A stretch of 64,000 bases of DNA. Origin: Nitrosococcus watsonii C-113. GTDB taxonomy: Bacteria; Pseudomonadota; Gammaproteobacteria; Nitrosococcales; Nitrosococcaceae. Of this stretch, positions 12,080-18,713 are shown piece after piece. The stretch covers positions 3,192,001-3,256,000 of the forward strand of contig NC_014315.1 of the NCBI RefSeq assembly GCF_000143085.1. Reading direction: 5' to 3'. Below the pieces are notes generated by a model. It had not been told where the DNA came from, searched no databases, and saw nothing but the letters and a program-made list of their open reading frames with translations. How positions within the stretch are numbered: position 1 is the first letter of the stretch; each line of letters starts with the position of its first letter. The position numbers and the translations under genes were made by a program.

Positions 12080-12136
12080 AAACTGTATTTTTAATCTATA
12101 ATTAAAAAGAGCCTAGTTCTTAGTAAAGGAAAGGCA

Positions 12137-12598
12137 ATGCAACTGACACAATATACGGATTATTCATTACGGGTTTTAATTTATCTCGATCTTTACAATA
12201 AGGAGCTTGCCACTATTAGTGAAATAGCCAAAAGCTATAATATCTCCCGTAACCACCTTGGGAAGGTAGTCCATAACCTTGCAAACTTAGGTTATATTGA
12301 TACCACCCGGGGAAAAGGAGGCGGGATGCGGCTGTCGCAAGCACCCGAGAATATTAATATAGGACAAGTGGTGCGACAGACGGAGGGACGATTTGATCTG
12401 GCTGAATGCTTTAATGCCGCACACAATACTTGCTCTATTTCCTCTTGTTGTCAATTAAAAAATGTCTTTTGGGAAGCGCGGTGCGCATTTATCGCAGTGC
12501 TAGATCGCTATACATTGGCCGATATTGTTAAAAATAAAAGCCAGTTACGTTCCTCACTCCAGATTGAATGGTTTCCTCCTAAAGCAGCAAGTCATTAA
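12137..12598 (+). CDS. nsrR: Rrf2-family NO-sensing repressor, NsrR type
   Basis: A 153-residue Rrf2 regulator with an N-terminal winged helix (residues 1-65, LTQYTDYSLRVLIYL through GKGGGMRL). It has the cysteines expected to hold an iron-sulfur cluster at 91, 99 and 104/105, spaced as in NsrR rather than IscR. NO destroys the cluster and lifts repression. The gene lies next to the norSY-senC-orf1 cluster on the opposite strand, with convergent 3' ends. A site resembling the NsrR consensus overlaps the promoter of that cluster at 16254-16273. The assignment rests on the cysteine pattern and context. Confidence 0.85.
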   Translation: MQLTQYTDYSLRVLIYLDLYNKELATISEIAKSYNISRNHLGKVVHNLANLGYIDTTRGKGGGMRLSQAPENINIGQVVRQTEGRFDLAECFNAAHNTCSISSCCQLKNVFWEARCAFIAVLDRYTLADIVKNKSQLRSSLQIEWFPPKAASH

Positions 12599-12707
12599 AC
12601 CCAGAGTTCATATTGCCGAAATCTCTAAGTTCTAATCTGCAAGAGCATTACAAAATTACTCGCTTATGTGTGGCAATGGTTCCCGCTGTAATATCGCTTA
12701 GGGTAAC

Positions 12708-13319
12708 TTAATTTTTTTCCGATAATGATGGATTAGATGCCAAAATTTTAGGCTTTTTCCACCTCACCCCGAATAAAATACGTAGTGTCCAGATCACAGC
12801 CCAAATACTTCCAATAATCAATAAAGCACGGCCAAGTATGCGCTGCTCCCCAAGTAAATAATTGGCGCATAGGCGATCCGGAAGCACTACATATAACCAA
12901 CCTAAGCGCATAAACATCGCCCAGAACTCTAGCATCAATACTCCTCGGGCAATGTAGTTAAGCTGAAACCAACTCAGGCTAAGCGCGGTACCAATAAATA
13001 ATGGGATACCAATAAATTTGGCAATCTCAAAAATAGGTTCTGAGATGGCCGCATCCAAAGCACGGGGCAGCATCCAGTAAAGCACGGTCGCAACCACCAG
13101 GACCATACCGGAGATACCCCACCGATTCCAGGGGGCAATTCTACGCTTTAGCTTTTCCGGAAAGGCTTGACCCAACCACCATCCCAAGAAGGCTAGAAGT
13201 GGCAACTGCACCAGCATATGGGTAATCATGCTCAGTTCTAGAACGTGCCGTAAGGGTGGCAACGCTAGCAATCCCCAAATCAGGCAAGGCAAATACCAAC
13301 TCCGCCTGCTAACCTTCAT
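12708..13319 (-). CDS. Multi-pass membrane protein of the sNOR cluster (orf1)
   Basis: 203 residues from the ATG at 13319, which has a GAGGGAA ribosome site; an upstream TTG at 13337 is less likely. It has about five or six hydrophobic segments (for example MITHMLVQLPLLAFLGWWLG and ALLIIGSIWAVIWTLRILFG) and ends in a charged cytoplasmic tail. The start overlaps the senC stop, so it is translationally coupled. It is the last gene of the norS-norY-senC-orf1 arrangement known from ammonia oxidisers. A role in assembly of the haem-copper enzyme is inferred from position only; no motif reveals a reaction. Confidence 0.75.
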   Translation of the reverse strand: MKVSRRSWYLPCLIWGLLALPPLRHVLELSMITHMLVQLPLLAFLGWWLGQAFPEKLKRRIAPWNRWGISGMVLVVATVLYWMLPRALDAAISEPIFEIAKFIGIPLFIGTALSLSWFQLNYIARGVLMLEFWAMFMRLGWLYVVLPDRLCANYLLGEQRILGRALLIIGSIWAVIWTLRILFGVRWKKPKILASNPSLSEKN

Positions 13320-13935
13320 TAGATTTTCCCTCAGCAAGAGCTATAGTCAAATAATCCTGCAGCTTGGAGTATTCCTCAACGCCAAAAATGGCTACCAAGC
13401 GCCCCTGAGGATTAATAACATGGTAACCCGCAGTATGAGTATAACCGCCCATTCCATCGGGAATAACCGTCACCTTAAAGAAGTCCAGAATCGCCTTTTT
13501 CTCAACAACATGAGTGGGGCGCGTCGCAACCCAATACTTTCCTTCGCCAGAAAAATGGGAAAAGTGATGGCGGAGCCGCTCCGGAGTATCCTTTTCTGGA
13601 TCAAAACTAATACTCAATAAGCGCAGCCTGTCCTTATCCAGCGCTTTTTCAAACTCTCTCTGAAGATTCCCCATGCCACTGCTGAGAGTTAAGCACGCGC
13701 TCGTACAACTCGTGTAAATAAAATCCACAACCACATATCGCCCGTGCCAATCACTCAGTGCTAGTGTCTTAGCATTCTGATCCTCCAAATGCCAGTTGGG
13801 GACTGGTTTTGGGTGTTCGCGCACCTCGAGGCGGCGCGCTGTTTCCGCGGTAAAGGCTCGGCCACCGTCTGTGCCTACCCATAGCGCTGTCAGGCCTGCT
13901 ATTGCCAAGAGCGTACTTAGAAACAGAGTTCTCAT
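13309..13935 (-). CDS. senC: SCO1/SenC-family copper chaperone
   Basis: A 208-residue thioredoxin-fold protein with an N-terminal signal or anchor (residues 1-20). The copper-binding CxxxC is at Cys77 and Cys81 (YTSCTSACL), after VVDFIY, and a conserved histidine region lies near HTAGYHVI. SCO proteins deliver copper to, or reduce, the CuA centre of haem-copper oxidase subunit II. Here the client is the NorS-like protein encoded upstream in the same run, which has a full CuA site. A hairpin with a T-run lies between norY and this gene, so its expression may be lower than that of norSY. Confidence 0.9.
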   Translation of the reverse strand: MRTLFLSTLLAIAGLTALWVGTDGGRAFTAETARRLEVREHPKPVPNWHLEDQNAKTLALSDWHGRYVVVDFIYTSCTSACLTLSSGMGNLQREFEKALDKDRLRLLSISFDPEKDTPERLRHHFSHFSGEGKYWVATRPTHVVEKKAILDFFKVTVIPDGMGGYTHTAGYHVINPQGRLVAIFGVEEYSKLQDYLTIALAEGKSNEG

Positions 13936-14033
13936 TTCTCAATCCTCCTTCTGGAGTCTACGTAGAATAATTAGACTCCCGTTAAATGAGATTTATTCCT
14001 TACACTCTCTAAAGCTAGTATAAAAACCTGATA

Positions 14034-14079
14034 GATAAAAGCGGCGCGCTTCCTTAATTAATAAAGAAACGCAGCCGCT
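14034..14079 (-). terminator. Hairpin with T-run between norY and senC
   Basis: Read on the minus strand, AGCGGC plus GCGTTTCTT pairs with AAGGAAGCGC plus GCCGCT around an AT-rich loop, and TTTTAT follows. This is a good Rho-independent terminator or processing stem downstream of the norSY pair. It would make senC-orf1 expression partial or dependent on read-through. Confidence 0.6.
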
Positions 14080-14145
14080 ATTCACACTAATTTTATGATT
14101 ATCAGATGCTTATCTCTATCTAAATCTAGATTCGCCTGCTACCTT

Positions 14146-15645
14146 TTAGTGGGCGGGTGCGAGCGCGGGATCAGGAGCTTTCGGAAGCACGGTAAGCACA
14201 CGCAAGGTAAATAGCAAAACACCCAGTATTACTAATATCGCGCCCCAAGTACTCCACTGTGCATAGGGAACCCATTCTTCTAAATGAACTGCCCAACGAC
14301 GGGGAACCCCGTTAGCACCACTCGTTAGAAAGCCTCCTACGAACAACAAGGCGCCTCCCACAAAGCTGTAAAATCCCAACTGCTCGATCAAAGGTGGTTT
14401 TTCTCCTTGAGAACCATTGGCTCCATTAAGAAGGTAAAAAGTAAAGCCAAAAATCATCGGCAACACGCCTAGCAGTAAATAAAAGTGGAAGTGGCCTGGC
14501 ACCCACATGGTATTGTGTAAGACCCGGTTAAAATCCACCATGGAATCAACAACTGCCGGAATACCTCCCGCAGCCCAGCCAAATATGGAAAGCATCAGCA
14601 GCTTGGCAGAAGTGTTCCACTGAATTCCCGAGCGATACACCAACATCAGAGCGCCATAGCCCGTCACCACCATCACCGGCAAACCACTACTATAGGAAAG
14701 CACCTGAGCACCAACCATAGCCCACCCGGGCATGGGAAAATCCATGTACAGATGATGGGGATAGACGCTCATCACCATGAAAACGATGGCAAACCAAGCA
14801 GCATAAAACACCTTCGAGGTCTTATAAGGACGGCCGGTAAAACGGGGCAACAGTTCATAGATGGCTGCTACCGCAGAATAAATGGCCACATTAATGATCA
14901 CGTGACCGAAGAAATAGATTAAGTTCTTGACCAATAGGGCGTCAGGCTTAAATTCTGGATTATAAAGGTTGACCAGCATCATCACCAATACCACGGCTCC
15001 CGCCGCAATACCGATAAAATCGACGATAAGCACCATGGTTCCCGCGACCACGGTTGCCGGATGGTAGGGGTCCAGCGGCTCTTTACCAAACAGTTGGGGC
15101 AATCCCAGTGCCCGCCCTAAACTGCCGTAGCTAGAAAGAATGGCTCGGCCAAAATCCAAAAGAAGAATCAGAAACCCGGTGCCAATGATGAGCAAGCCTA
15201 GCAAAAATGCCGCAGCCGCTCCGGTGGACCAAGCCCCCATGGAAATACCCGGCAAAGGGTATAAAAACGTCCAGGCGCCACCATACTTGCCGAGAAATAT
15301 GGAGCCCAAAATAATGACCACACCGGTAAGAAAGATACCAAAATTAAGCCAGAATATTTTGGTGCTTAACGGCACATATTGGCGCAAAAAATACCATAAC
15401 ACCGCCATCCCACCAATTGCTGCCGTGCCGACCATGCCAGCGCCATGGACCGTCATAAATTGGTAAAAAACGTCCGCTCCTATCGGCGCCATATTACCTT
15501 GGGCAGCACGCAGCGTCGCGCCTGCCAGCATCATTAACAAGAAAACCAGAAACCCGGCAATCAGATGGGCTTTTACCGCCACCAGTGCGGCCTGATTCTC
15601 CGCTTCGCTATAACTAATTTTTTTATCTAATGTTGTTGTGCTCAT
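14146..15645 (-). CDS. norY: sNOR catalytic subunit (haem-copper oxidase superfamily subunit I)
   Basis: A 499-residue, about 12-helix protein. All metal-ligand histidines are visible: His67 and His387 for the low-spin haem, His385 for the high-spin haem, and His248 plus His297/His298 for CuB. At the helix VI position where oxygen reductases carry the cross-linked tyrosine (His plus four), this protein has Asn252 in FGHVIINVAIY. That departs from ordinary oxidases and fits the sNOR (NorSY) nitric oxide reductase class described in ammonia oxidisers. It follows the CuA subunit by 38 bp. The reaction expected is 2 NO to N2O in the cytoplasmic membrane. Activity with O2 cannot be excluded from sequence. 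Confidence 0.88.
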   Translation of the reverse strand: MSTTTLDKKISYSEAENQAALVAVKAHLIAGFLVFLLMMLAGATLRAAQGNMAPIGADVFYQFMTVHGAGMVGTAAIGGMAVLWYFLRQYVPLSTKIFWLNFGIFLTGVVIILGSIFLGKYGGAWTFLYPLPGISMGAWSTGAAAAFLLGLLIIGTGFLILLLDFGRAILSSYGSLGRALGLPQLFGKEPLDPYHPATVVAGTMVLIVDFIGIAAGAVVLVMMLVNLYNPEFKPDALLVKNLIYFFGHVIINVAIYSAVAAIYELLPRFTGRPYKTSKVFYAAWFAIVFMVMSVYPHHLYMDFPMPGWAMVGAQVLSYSSGLPVMVVTGYGALMLVYRSGIQWNTSAKLLMLSIFGWAAGGIPAVVDSMVDFNRVLHNTMWVPGHFHFYLLLGVLPMIFGFTFYLLNGANGSQGEKPPLIEQLGFYSFVGGALLFVGGFLTSGANGVPRRWAVHLEEWVPYAQWSTWGAILVILGVLLFTLRVLTVLPKAPDPALAPAH

Positions 15646-15683
15646 GACCGTCTCCGCTATTCTCTCCTCTATGTTTCAAAAGC

Positions 15684-16214
15684 CTAGCTGGCAGCTTCCA
15701 CCTTCAATTCACTCATCATGACGTGATGTGCCAAGCCACAATATTCCAGGCAAAAAATACGGTACTTACCGGGTTCATCAAATGTATGGATTAACTTGTT
15801 AGTATAGCCAGGCATGGCCTGAACTTGGGCAACGAGTTCCAAGTTTTCATTATAAACCCCAAAACCGTGATTGACATCAGCTCCCACGACCCGAAATTCC
15901 ACAGGCTTACCCGCAACAACGGTATCAGTACTCATCGTCCAATACCACTGATGTCCGCTGACATCGACTTGCTGATAATCGTCACTGGAATAAGTTTTAG
16001 CTTGAGGGGGAATGGGAAAGGGAATCAGCGTTCCCAAGGTAAAAGCAGTCCCTAAAATAATTAGAAAAATAAACCACTTACCGCGAAAGCTATACCACTT
16101 ACCGCTAAAAGTCGAATACTCCTCCCGGAGCTTAGAATTACTAATAACAAAATAGAACACTCCAAGAAGCAACACTGTGCCGAGGAGTGTTATATACGAA
16201 GCGATTGATTGCAT
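15684..16214 (-). CDS. norS: sNOR CuA subunit (subunit II-like)
   Basis: A 176-residue protein with two N-terminal membrane segments (about 7-25 and 46-65) and a periplasmic cupredoxin domain. A complete CuA site is present: His116, Cys155, Glu157, Cys159, His163 and Met166 in CLEYCGLAHHVM. It would accept electrons from cytochrome c or another donor and pass them to the NorY subunit. It is the first gene of norS-norY-senC-orf1. Its start lies about 40 bp from a candidate NsrR site overlapping a sigma-70 promoter. The short length matches NorS-type rather than aa3-type subunit II. Confidence 0.88.
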   Translation of the reverse strand: MQSIASYITLLGTVLLLGVFYFVISNSKLREEYSTFSGKWYSFRGKWFIFLIILGTAFTLGTLIPFPIPPQAKTYSSDDYQQVDVSGHQWYWTMSTDTVVAGKPVEFRVVGADVNHGFGVYNENLELVAQVQAMPGYTNKLIHTFDEPGKYRIFCLEYCGLAHHVMMSELKVEAAS

Positions 16215-16253
16215 TGTGCTTATCCTTCCTCATAGAATCGGTCAGAATCTGAA

Positions 16254-16282
16254 AACATATATTTGATATAGTTCTTTGTCAA
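16254..16282 (-). promoter_or_regulatory. Promoter of norS with overlapping NsrR-like dyad
   Basis: On the minus strand TTGACA (16282-16277) is followed by a 17-bp spacer and TATGTT (16259-16254), a good sigma-70 promoter about 40 bp before norS. The plus-strand stretch AACATATATTTGATATAGTT (16254-16273) matches the E. coli-type NsrR consensus AAnATGYATTTnAAATRCATnTT at most positions of the left half-site and several of the right. It covers the spacer and -10, where a repressor would block polymerase. Confidence 0.55.
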
Positions 16283-16601: not shown

Positions 16602-17192
16602 TCAATGGGCTTTTTCTTTAATGGCAACCTGATAAATGGCCAACACTTTACGGGCGCTACTCACTGCCGCCCGCGAGCTCAGGGTAGCGCCGGTGATACC
16701 TTGGATTCCATAATTAAGATTAAGCTCAGTGAGCTGGCGTTGGTAAAGCTGTGCAAACCAACGTTGCGGCGGCTGATATTCCGGAGGCTCATGGAAAGCA
16801 AGCGTGTAAATTTTATCCAGTTCGCCGCTAGGGGTAAGAATAACCAACAAGGTTTCCGGTTTAGTACGTACCGTGTGGGACTCAATCGCCGCATAGCCAA
16901 GGAGCTCGCCTTCATTTCGTCCCACATAAAAGGTAAACAGTTTAGATTCCAGCTTAACCCGGGCAAGCCGCTCGATTTCTTCTACTTGGGATTCAGTCAA
17001 AAATAGAGACAATATCTCGACTTGGGCTTCTTTGCCAAAAGCCAGCTCCAACGCCTCTTTTTTACCGTAATAAATGGTACCAATAGCGTTTCTCGTTACA
17101 AGGACTACTATTATTGCCCCTGCTATGAGAAAAAAATGCCTCCCCTTTTTAAATGCTTTCATAAATCTTGATATAGGCATGACAGGACCCAT
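16602..17192 (-). CDS. Membrane-anchored FMN-binding domain protein
   Basis: A 196-residue protein with one N-terminal membrane helix (about residues 15-34) and an exported FMN-binding domain of the RnfG/NqrC/NosR type. The C-terminal motif YGIQGITGATLSSRA contains the threonine to which FMN is covalently attached in this family (S/TGATxSS). It probably carries electrons on the periplasmic side of the membrane. It follows the porin-like gene by 48 bp on the same strand and is likely co-transcribed. The electron donor and acceptor are unknown. The first ATG sits in a small GGGCCCAT/ATGGG hairpin; a second ATG four codons on is possible. Confidence 0.8.
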   Translation of the reverse strand: MGPVMPISRFMKAFKKGRHFFLIAGAIIVVLVTRNAIGTIYYGKKEALELAFGKEAQVEILSLFLTESQVEEIERLARVKLESKLFTFYVGRNEGELLGYAAIESHTVRTKPETLLVILTPSGELDKIYTLAFHEPPEYQPPQRWFAQLYQRQLTELNLNYGIQGITGATLSSRAAVSSARKVLAIYQVAIKEKAH

Positions 17193-17240: not shown

Positions 17241-18713
17241 CTAAAAAATAAACCCAAGCCCCAGATTAAACTCATCAGCAGCGGAAGGGTTGCTATCTCT
17301 ACCTACGAAGTTACGATAATCCGCCTTAATGACCACATTGGGAATAGGTTTGTAGTTGATTCCCACCTGGTAGATATCCTGATTGATACCGCCTTTATCC
17401 GAAAATCCTGCTGGAGCGCTGGCAATAGTATTCAGTTGCTCAAAGCGGAAGAAGGGAGCCAAGTACTGGATAGTTTCCGGCCACACCAACGGTAACAAAT
17501 TATAAGCCAGCTCCGTATACCAGCCAAAATTGCTCTTACCAATGGTTTCCCCCTTGGCGGCACTAAGCGCTTCGGCATCACCGATATGTCCCCAGGCCCC
17601 TAGAGCCCGGAGCCACCAGCCTCGATACTGCCACTGGAGGTGGCCCTCATAGAGCTGAGTGAAGACATCCAGATCTTGCCCTGCATAGCTTTGATCCTGG
17701 CCCGAATTGCCCACATAGGCGGAGCCGCCAAAGGAAAGCCCAAGCATCGCCGGAGGCGAGTACTCCAAACGGCCCACAAAGGCCAAATCTTCCGCTAAAG
17801 CTTTACTGCCGGCCTGGCGACCGTCGCGGATACCTCTGGAGCTGAATTCTTCGGCATTCAAGCCATTCACTCCATACATAGTATAGGTTAATCCCGGCCA
17901 GAGCTGACCAAAAAGACCCACCCCATTCTCGTGCCAGGTGCTGGGAATAATTCGCTGTTCGACTTCGGGACGCTTATTGCCGAAAAAGAAGGGCGGTTCA
18001 TGAATAAGGTTGATAAACCCCATAGGAAGCAACAGCATGCCAGCCCGGACATTGAACCGGGGATCAATGAAAAAATCGAGAGAAGCAAACTCGACAGAAA
18101 CTTCGCCCTTCTCCTCATCCCCTTCCCCGGTAGTGCCATGTTCAAATTCGATTTCGCTATTAAACAATATCCTATCGGTGAATTTATAACCGACATAGAG
18201 CACCACACGCTCTAAATCAGCATTATCCTTTCCATCCCCATTCACAAAGTTTTGGTAGAGAGCGTTGCCATAACCACCAATGGAAAGCCCTTTACCAGCT
18301 TGGTAAACTTTAGAAGCTGCCGGCCCAAAACCGTACATGCTTTTATACTTGAACTCTTCGGGAATGTGCATCGCGGTCCGCAGGCTTTCTACCGCTTCAG
18401 CGAGAACACCCGTTTTGTGTTCCAACTCCTTAACCTGAGCTTTTGTCTCCGTATTCTCCTCAGAAGCAGAGGTTGCTGTTTTTGGAGATTCTTTAGTGCT
18501 CTCCGATGCTTCTTTAGAAACCTCTGGCTGAGCTTCCTCTTCTACGGGTTGGGATTTCGCTTTGAGTGCTTCAATTTCCTTTTGCTGCTGCTGAATGATC
18601 CGCCACATTTCTTCCATGGTTTGTGGCATTTCCTCCGCCGCCTTCAGGGGCAAGTTTGCAGCCAATGTGAGCGCGGCTAACCCAACCCTCACTAAGCTTT
18701 TCTTCTTCCTCAC
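17241..18713 (-). CDS. Outer-membrane porin-like beta-barrel with N-terminal coiled coil
   Basis: 490 residues starting at a GTG with a GAGAGGAT ribosome site. A signal peptide (about 1-25, ending near LKAAEE) is followed by a coiled coil (MWRIIQQQQKEIEALKAK), an acidic, threonine-rich linker (about 55-95) and a long barrel domain rich in alternating aromatic and polar strands. It ends in GLGFIF with a terminal Phe, the outer-membrane insertion signal. The N-terminal coiled coil resembles trimeric porins such as DcaP or phosphate-type porins. The substrate is unknown. It lies upstream of the FMN-binding protein, so they may share a stress or respiratory function. Confidence 0.75.
   Translation of the reverse strand: MRKKKSLVRVGLAALTLAANLPLKAAEEMPQTMEEMWRIIQQQQKEIEALKAKSQPVEEEAQPEVSKEASESTKESPKTATSASEENTETKAQVKELEHKTGVLAEAVESLRTAMHIPEEFKYKSMYGFGPAASKVYQAGKGLSIGGYGNALYQNFVNGDGKDNADLERVVLYVGYKFTDRILFNSEIEFEHGTTGEGDEEKGEVSVEFASLDFFIDPRFNVRAGMLLLPMGFINLIHEPPFFFGNKRPEVEQRIIPSTWHENGVGLFGQLWPGLTYTMYGVNGLNAEEFSSRGIRDGRQAGSKALAEDLAFVGRLEYSPPAMLGLSFGGSAYVGNSGQDQSYAGQDLDVFTQLYEGHLQWQYRGWWLRALGAWGHIGDAEALSAAKGETIGKSNFGWYTELAYNLLPLVWPETIQYLAPFFRFEQLNTIASAPAGFSDKGGINQDIYQVGINYKPIPNVVIKADYRNFVGRDSNPSAADEFNLGLGFIF

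Follow-up and report, generated by a model that had tools for sequence, protein, structure and literature searches.

Ammonia oxidisers are a source of NO and N2O. It is openly disputed if their haem-copper enzyme sNOR acts as an NO remover or as a respirer of O2, and its NO reductase activity is disputed as well (PMC6967387). The locus studied here raises this question from the side of gene regulation, as it places a complete sNOR gene cluster beside a regulator of the Rrf2 family. It lies in a 64-kb window (the whole stretch of DNA that was analyzed) of the genome, designated G000 (3.37 Mb in 3 contigs), of a marine ammonia-oxidising Nitrosococcus. From comparison of sequences, we propose that the sNOR operon is under the control of the NO-sensing repressor NsrR, so that norS would be repressed, NO would relieve the repression and NorSY would reduce NO. 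To this reading we assign a probability of roughly 0.78.

The norSY-senC-orf1 cluster and its enzyme

The genes norS, norY, senC and orf1 were found in this order on the minus strand, from position 16214 to 12708, and the Rrf2 gene, here called nsrR (12137-12598), lies beside them on the plus strand, convergent (tail-to-tail) with orf1. Coordinates and Pfam agreed on this arrangement, which the first-pass annotation of the window had described, and the COX2, COX1, SCO1-SenC and Rrf2 matches of the cluster and regulator proteins were all above the Pfam cut-offs. norS (15684-16214) encodes the CuA-bearing subunit II of sNOR (176 aa; COX2), norY (14146-15645) the catalytic haem-copper subunit I (499 aa; COX1), senC (13309-13935) a SCO1/SenC copper chaperone (SCO1-SenC, E 4.4e-16) and orf1 (12708-13319) a conserved membrane protein. 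As had also been stated in that annotation, both the gene order and the sNOR class are known from ammonia oxidisers (PMC3772326, PMC4940428): norSY-senC-orf1 has been described for Nitrosomonas and Nitrosospira (PMC4940428), and the N. oceani annotation already contains the cluster together with the adjacent NsrR gene (Noc2967-2971; PMC3772326). The parts list of the Nitrosococcus cluster is not new; what is new is the evidence for a regulatory link between NsrR and sNOR, of which an earlier mention in the literature is possible.

Upstream of norS and on the same strand, we also observed genes for two further proteins, one with an FMN-binding domain (16602-17192; weak match to PF04205) and one predicted to be porin-like (17241-18713). 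Both are kept in this place in four Nitrosococcus species, and neither was found in the stretches examined of two further Nitrosococcaceae genomes, G004 and G005.

With regard to the enzyme, the CuA site of NorS was complete, its six ligands (H116, C155, E157, C159, H163 and M166) being invariant in the 13 NorS proteins aligned. The haem and CuB ligands of NorY (H67, H248, H297, H298, H385 and H387) were likewise invariant among 30 NorY proteins. The position of the cross-linked tyrosine of oxidases was occupied by Asn252 in 30/30 NorY, while the oxidases compared from these genomes carry a tyrosine there; this residue comparison leaves out HCO_L001, HCO_L016 and HCO_L006, whose rows were taken from the wrong strand. 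Further, NorY shared 69-71% identity with NorY of Nitrosomonas, whose clusters show the same gene order. The one-strand order, the CuA site and the histidine ligands combined with a replaced tyrosine thus bear out the assignment to sNOR of the norSY type and the active-site residues given in the first-pass annotation. In-frame stops in norY of G001 were considered and rejected, as the match merely extends beyond the true stop.

The solved structure nearest to the NorY profile was the B-type ba3 oxidase of Thermus, which is to be expected since sNOR has been placed among the NO reductases related to the B family (PMC11388526). The same proximity is nevertheless what would be seen if NorSY served mainly as a B-type terminal oxidase of high affinity that is induced by low O2 or redox state, with NO sensing sustaining respiration while the other oxidases are poisoned by NO. 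SenC and a CuA site are common to oxidases, and sNOR was raised 2.7-10.8-fold in O2-limited N. europaea, where an oxidase role was proposed (PMC6967387). We nonetheless judge this explanation unlikely, because the catalytic tyrosine is an asparagine in every NorY compared and because nsrR recurs at the cluster and operator-like sites recur on norS, as detailed below. Other haem-copper oxidases, a cNOR (norB) and a qNOR are also encoded in G000.

The two remaining genes of the cluster accompany sNOR throughout: senC was found at all sNOR clusters retrieved, and an orf1 homologue at every one of them. No Pfam or NCBIfam match was obtained for orf1 of the window itself, and 8 of 28 orf1 relatives matched DUF1404 weakly. 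Its product, in which H34, W82, D89, C151 and Q159 are invariant, is probably an assembly factor. The predicted structure of Orf1 (pLDDT 88.8) had no convincing solved relative (Foldseek, VIA-align 2), which does not show a new fold. In another locus (L092, 4776-5384), a cbb3-like oxidase is followed by a further copy of senC and orf1; as that oxidase is devoid of CuA, this second pair hints at a role of Orf1 and SenC in the loading of CuB.

A strong hairpin followed by TTTTAT (14037-14082, minus strand; -28.9 kcal/mol, z -6.0) separates norY from senC, and for this reason a single four-gene transcript is not certain. The hairpin may be a partial terminator, or a stabiliser. Several relatives carry hairpins of differing sequence in the same gap. 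In N. oceani, the changes in the senC transcript differ from those of norS (PMC3772326).

A candidate operator on the norS promoter and the linkage of nsrR to sNOR

The norS promoter predicted in the first-pass annotation, TTGACA-17-TATGTT, occupies positions 16282-16254 on the minus strand with 10/12 matches, in a region with 2 promoter-like sites vs. 0.9 expected. Its -35 element (16277-16282) is conserved in five of six species, and its -10 element (16254-16259) reads TAAGTT in two relatives. A 20-bp operator had been proposed to overlap this promoter; the sequence is present, but the operator-like unit is 23 bp long (AAGAACTATATCAAATATATGTT, 16254-16276, minus strand), with the 20 bp inside. 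The accompanying description of this sequence as close to the NsrR consensus was overstated. When compared with the published consensus gATGyAT-N5-ATrCATc (PMC1274295), the best match in the Nitrosococcus norS region reached at most 10 of the 14 fixed positions, with a chance probability of about 0.27, and we rejected this match as an argument for an operator in Nitrosococcus. A matrix built from the norS sites of other taxa alone was also rejected, given that about one equal match per 64 kb occurs by chance. Since both of these were near chance, the argument for an operator is carried by a family matrix and by conservation.

The family matrix, 23 bp long and palindromic, was derived from 11 non-norS promoter sites of Nitrosococcaceae that we chose by consensus, and it was used to scan the 64-kb window. 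The site at 16254-16276 ranked first with 17.2 bits (0.03 expected from shuffles). In second place was a weaker candidate site in the nsrR promoter (AAACTGTATTTTTAATCTATAAT, 12080-12102, plus strand; 10.9 bits, 0.69 expected), which is conserved in four Nitrosococcus species and might serve autoregulation. The Nitrosococcus norS site scored 10-17 bits, vs. 20-30 bits for the training sites; it was unique in each genome, and the same register gave the best match in 6/6 norS promoters (p <= 0.007 each). Hence, the candidate operator at norS is weak by consensus and significant by matrix and conservation.

The conserved block might, on the other hand, represent no more than the core promoter, or bind another factor, with NsrR controlling a nirK-type remnant near haoA and not norS; the weak consensus match at norS would then be accounted for, as would the strong canonical NsrR sites that G000 carries elsewhere (G000:C1:774197-774252). 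We consider this doubtful on account of the extent of the conservation. In 25-bp windows from -74, the block showed 100% identity among four species, compared to 59% upstream, and identity ran through the full 17-bp spacer, whose sequence a bare promoter leaves free to vary. Moreover, the register shared by the six species includes the more canonical norS sites of G004 and G005, and relatives carry canonical sites at norS. In these other taxa, the norS promoters matched the consensus at 14/14 positions in L076 and L092, at 13/14 in L075 and L095 and at 12/14 in L082 and L093 (p <= 0.003). Clade-specific NsrR-like variants with GTAGTAT or GTTGCAT half-sites were also observed upstream of norS in L079, L077, L081 and L083; regulator and operator may have co-evolved across clades with variant half-sites.

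Control of norS by NsrR also finds support in gene linkage. nsrR adjoins the sNOR cluster in all six Nitrosococcaceae genomes that have norY, and 10 of the 19 other alpha- and gammaproteobacterial loci compared (Nitrosomonas excluded) carry an nsrR-like gene at their sNOR cluster. Eight of these ten genes are head-to-head with norS, one is just upstream on the same strand and one is at the far end, which is the layout seen in the window. By neighbourhood and matrix scan, the sNOR clusters of Nitrosomonas had neither an adjoining nsrR nor an NsrR site before norS, which indicates that NsrR is not obligatory for sNOR. The operator and the control by the neighbouring regulator, put forward in the first place as inference, are now argued from comparative evidence, i.e., linkage, matrix and conservation.

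Identity of the regulator and NsrR sites elsewhere in the genomes

The regulator, of 153 aa, had NsrR of Streptomyces coelicolor (PDB 5n07) as its closest solved protein, whose cluster ligands are given in PMC5411485 as three cysteines and Asp8. Asp8, Cys91, Cys99 and Cys105 were invariant in the six Nitrosococcaceae regulators. Thus, of the cysteines pointed out earlier (Cys91, Cys99 and Cys104/105), the first two stand and the third is Cys105, since Cys104 is missing in one of the six. Phylogenetic analysis of 47 Rrf2 proteins placed the regulator in one clade (100/98) with the NsrR proteins of E. coli, N. europaea and S. coelicolor and separated it from IscR and from the remaining Rrf2 proteins of G000. 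Its recognition helix, SRNHL, is close to SRNHM of E. coli NsrR.

NCBIfam by itself cannot choose between NsrR and RirA, as the regulator scored 134.1 of 182 bits in the NsrR equivalog model and 135.9 of 193 bits in that of RirA, both under cut-off. The NsrR cut-off is an annotation threshold and not a biological trait, and the model appears to be narrow, given that 0/75 sampled genomes of the class pass it. Ligand set and tree agree on the NO-sensing NsrR identity despite this score. A RirA-like iron regulator that ties sNOR to the supply of iron and not to NO is very improbable in spite of the slightly higher RirA score. Inside the NsrR/RirA clade, the RirA proteins form a group of their own (100/100) with Asn8, and the regulator, with its Asp8 and SRNHL helix, lies outside this group; moreover, the predicted targets are NO genes.

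These targets were predicted by a genome-wide scan, performed by pattern in six Nitrosococcaceae genomes, which had been suggested in the first-pass annotation and which yielded canonical sites at nirK-cluster, nnrS and qNOR genes. Tandem canonical sites were located upstream of an operon of the multicopper oxidase-cytochromes-nirK type in G001, of its decayed remnant in G003 and of a solitary cupredoxin gene close to cytochrome P460 and haoA in G000 and G002, as well as of nnrS in G004 and qNOR in G005. As gATGyAT-N5-ATrCATc operators are present at NO genes within the same family, NsrR of the Nitrosococcaceae would appear to have ordinary targets and DNA specificity. The ncgABC-nirK-like operon with these sites is intact in G001 (L132, 6845-10059) and fragmented in G003 (L133, 3577-4014 and 4475-4900), while in the window's genome and in G002 only a single-domain cupredoxin is found, with the tandem sites kept (L129, 6406-6861).

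As a positive control, a combined matrix (family and other taxa) recovered sites of 24.5 and 20.5 bits in the nsrR-ncgA promoter of N. europaea, a known NsrR target (Beaumont 2004, as cited in PMC4103548). In G000, the cNOR operon showed only a weak site of 9.6 bits, before the gene upstream of norC, and no NsrR site was detected by matrix at the qNOR operon; NsrR control of these two operons was rejected. An NsrR-like site with 2 mismatches (AAAGTATATATAACATACATCTT) was also observed at G000:C1:3289780 and G002:C2:3443505; in G000 it is flanked by a hypothetical gene and by an A-type oxidase cluster, the latter with its cytochrome c side towards the site (L130).

Proposed NO response and comparison with known systems

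Starting from the genes, the active-site and cluster-ligand residues, the nsrR-sNOR linkage and the conserved operator-like sequences observed, we propose the following scheme, in which the Fe-S cluster, the binding, the direction of control, the functions given to SenC and Orf1 and the activity of the enzyme are predictions. NsrR with an intact [Fe-S] cluster held by Cys91, Cys99, Cys105 and Asp8 of the partner subunit would occupy the 23-bp site and block RNA polymerase at norS. NO arising during hydroxylamine or nitrite processing would destroy the cluster, so that NsrR would leave the DNA. NorS, with its CuA, and NorY, with haem-CuB and devoid of the cross-linked tyrosine, would then be made and would convert NO to N2O, drawing electrons from cytochrome c. 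SenC and Orf1 would help in copper loading.

In N. oceani, norS was up-regulated 9.6-fold by ammonium and 7.0-fold by hydroxylamine and was down 7-fold on starvation (PMC3772326). The rise with ammonium and hydroxylamine would be expected if NO relieves repression, with which it agrees without being proof; the ammonium induction might instead be a response to the energy status of the cell.

On a broader scale, we see an even chance that nsrR together with sNOR makes up an NO-response module that is widespread in alpha- and gammaproteobacteria, with direct repression of norS, and that in Nitrosococcaceae the regulon has moved from the nirK operon to sNOR. If so, the module would mark sNOR physiologically as an NO-removing enzyme and not an oxidase, as control by an NO-sensing repressor favours NO removal over O2 respiration. 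It would also add a different kind of NO reductase to the NsrR regulon, of which hmp, nirK and norB are already known. The 23-bp site and the named genes make the NO-removal role testable.

Compared with known systems, the cluster shares its gene order, CuA, haem and CuB ligands and the asparagine at the tyrosine position with Noc2969-2971 of N. oceani and NE0683-86 of N. europaea. In N. oceani, as in the window, NsrR (Noc2967) adjoins sNOR, and it is in this adjoining nsrR and in the site before norS that the Nitrosomonas clusters differ. The regulator carries the same set of three cysteines and Asp8 as S. coelicolor NsrR 5n07 and a recognition helix similar to that of E. coli NsrR, whereas the Nitrosococcus norS operator departs from gATGyAT-N5-ATrCATc. 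NsrR of N. europaea, 54% identical to that of the window and with ncgA operators found by our matrix, lies beside the nitrite reductase cluster (ncgABC-nirK) that it controls. An operon of this kind with such sites is present in G001, of the same genus as the window, while the NsrR of the window lies beside sNOR.
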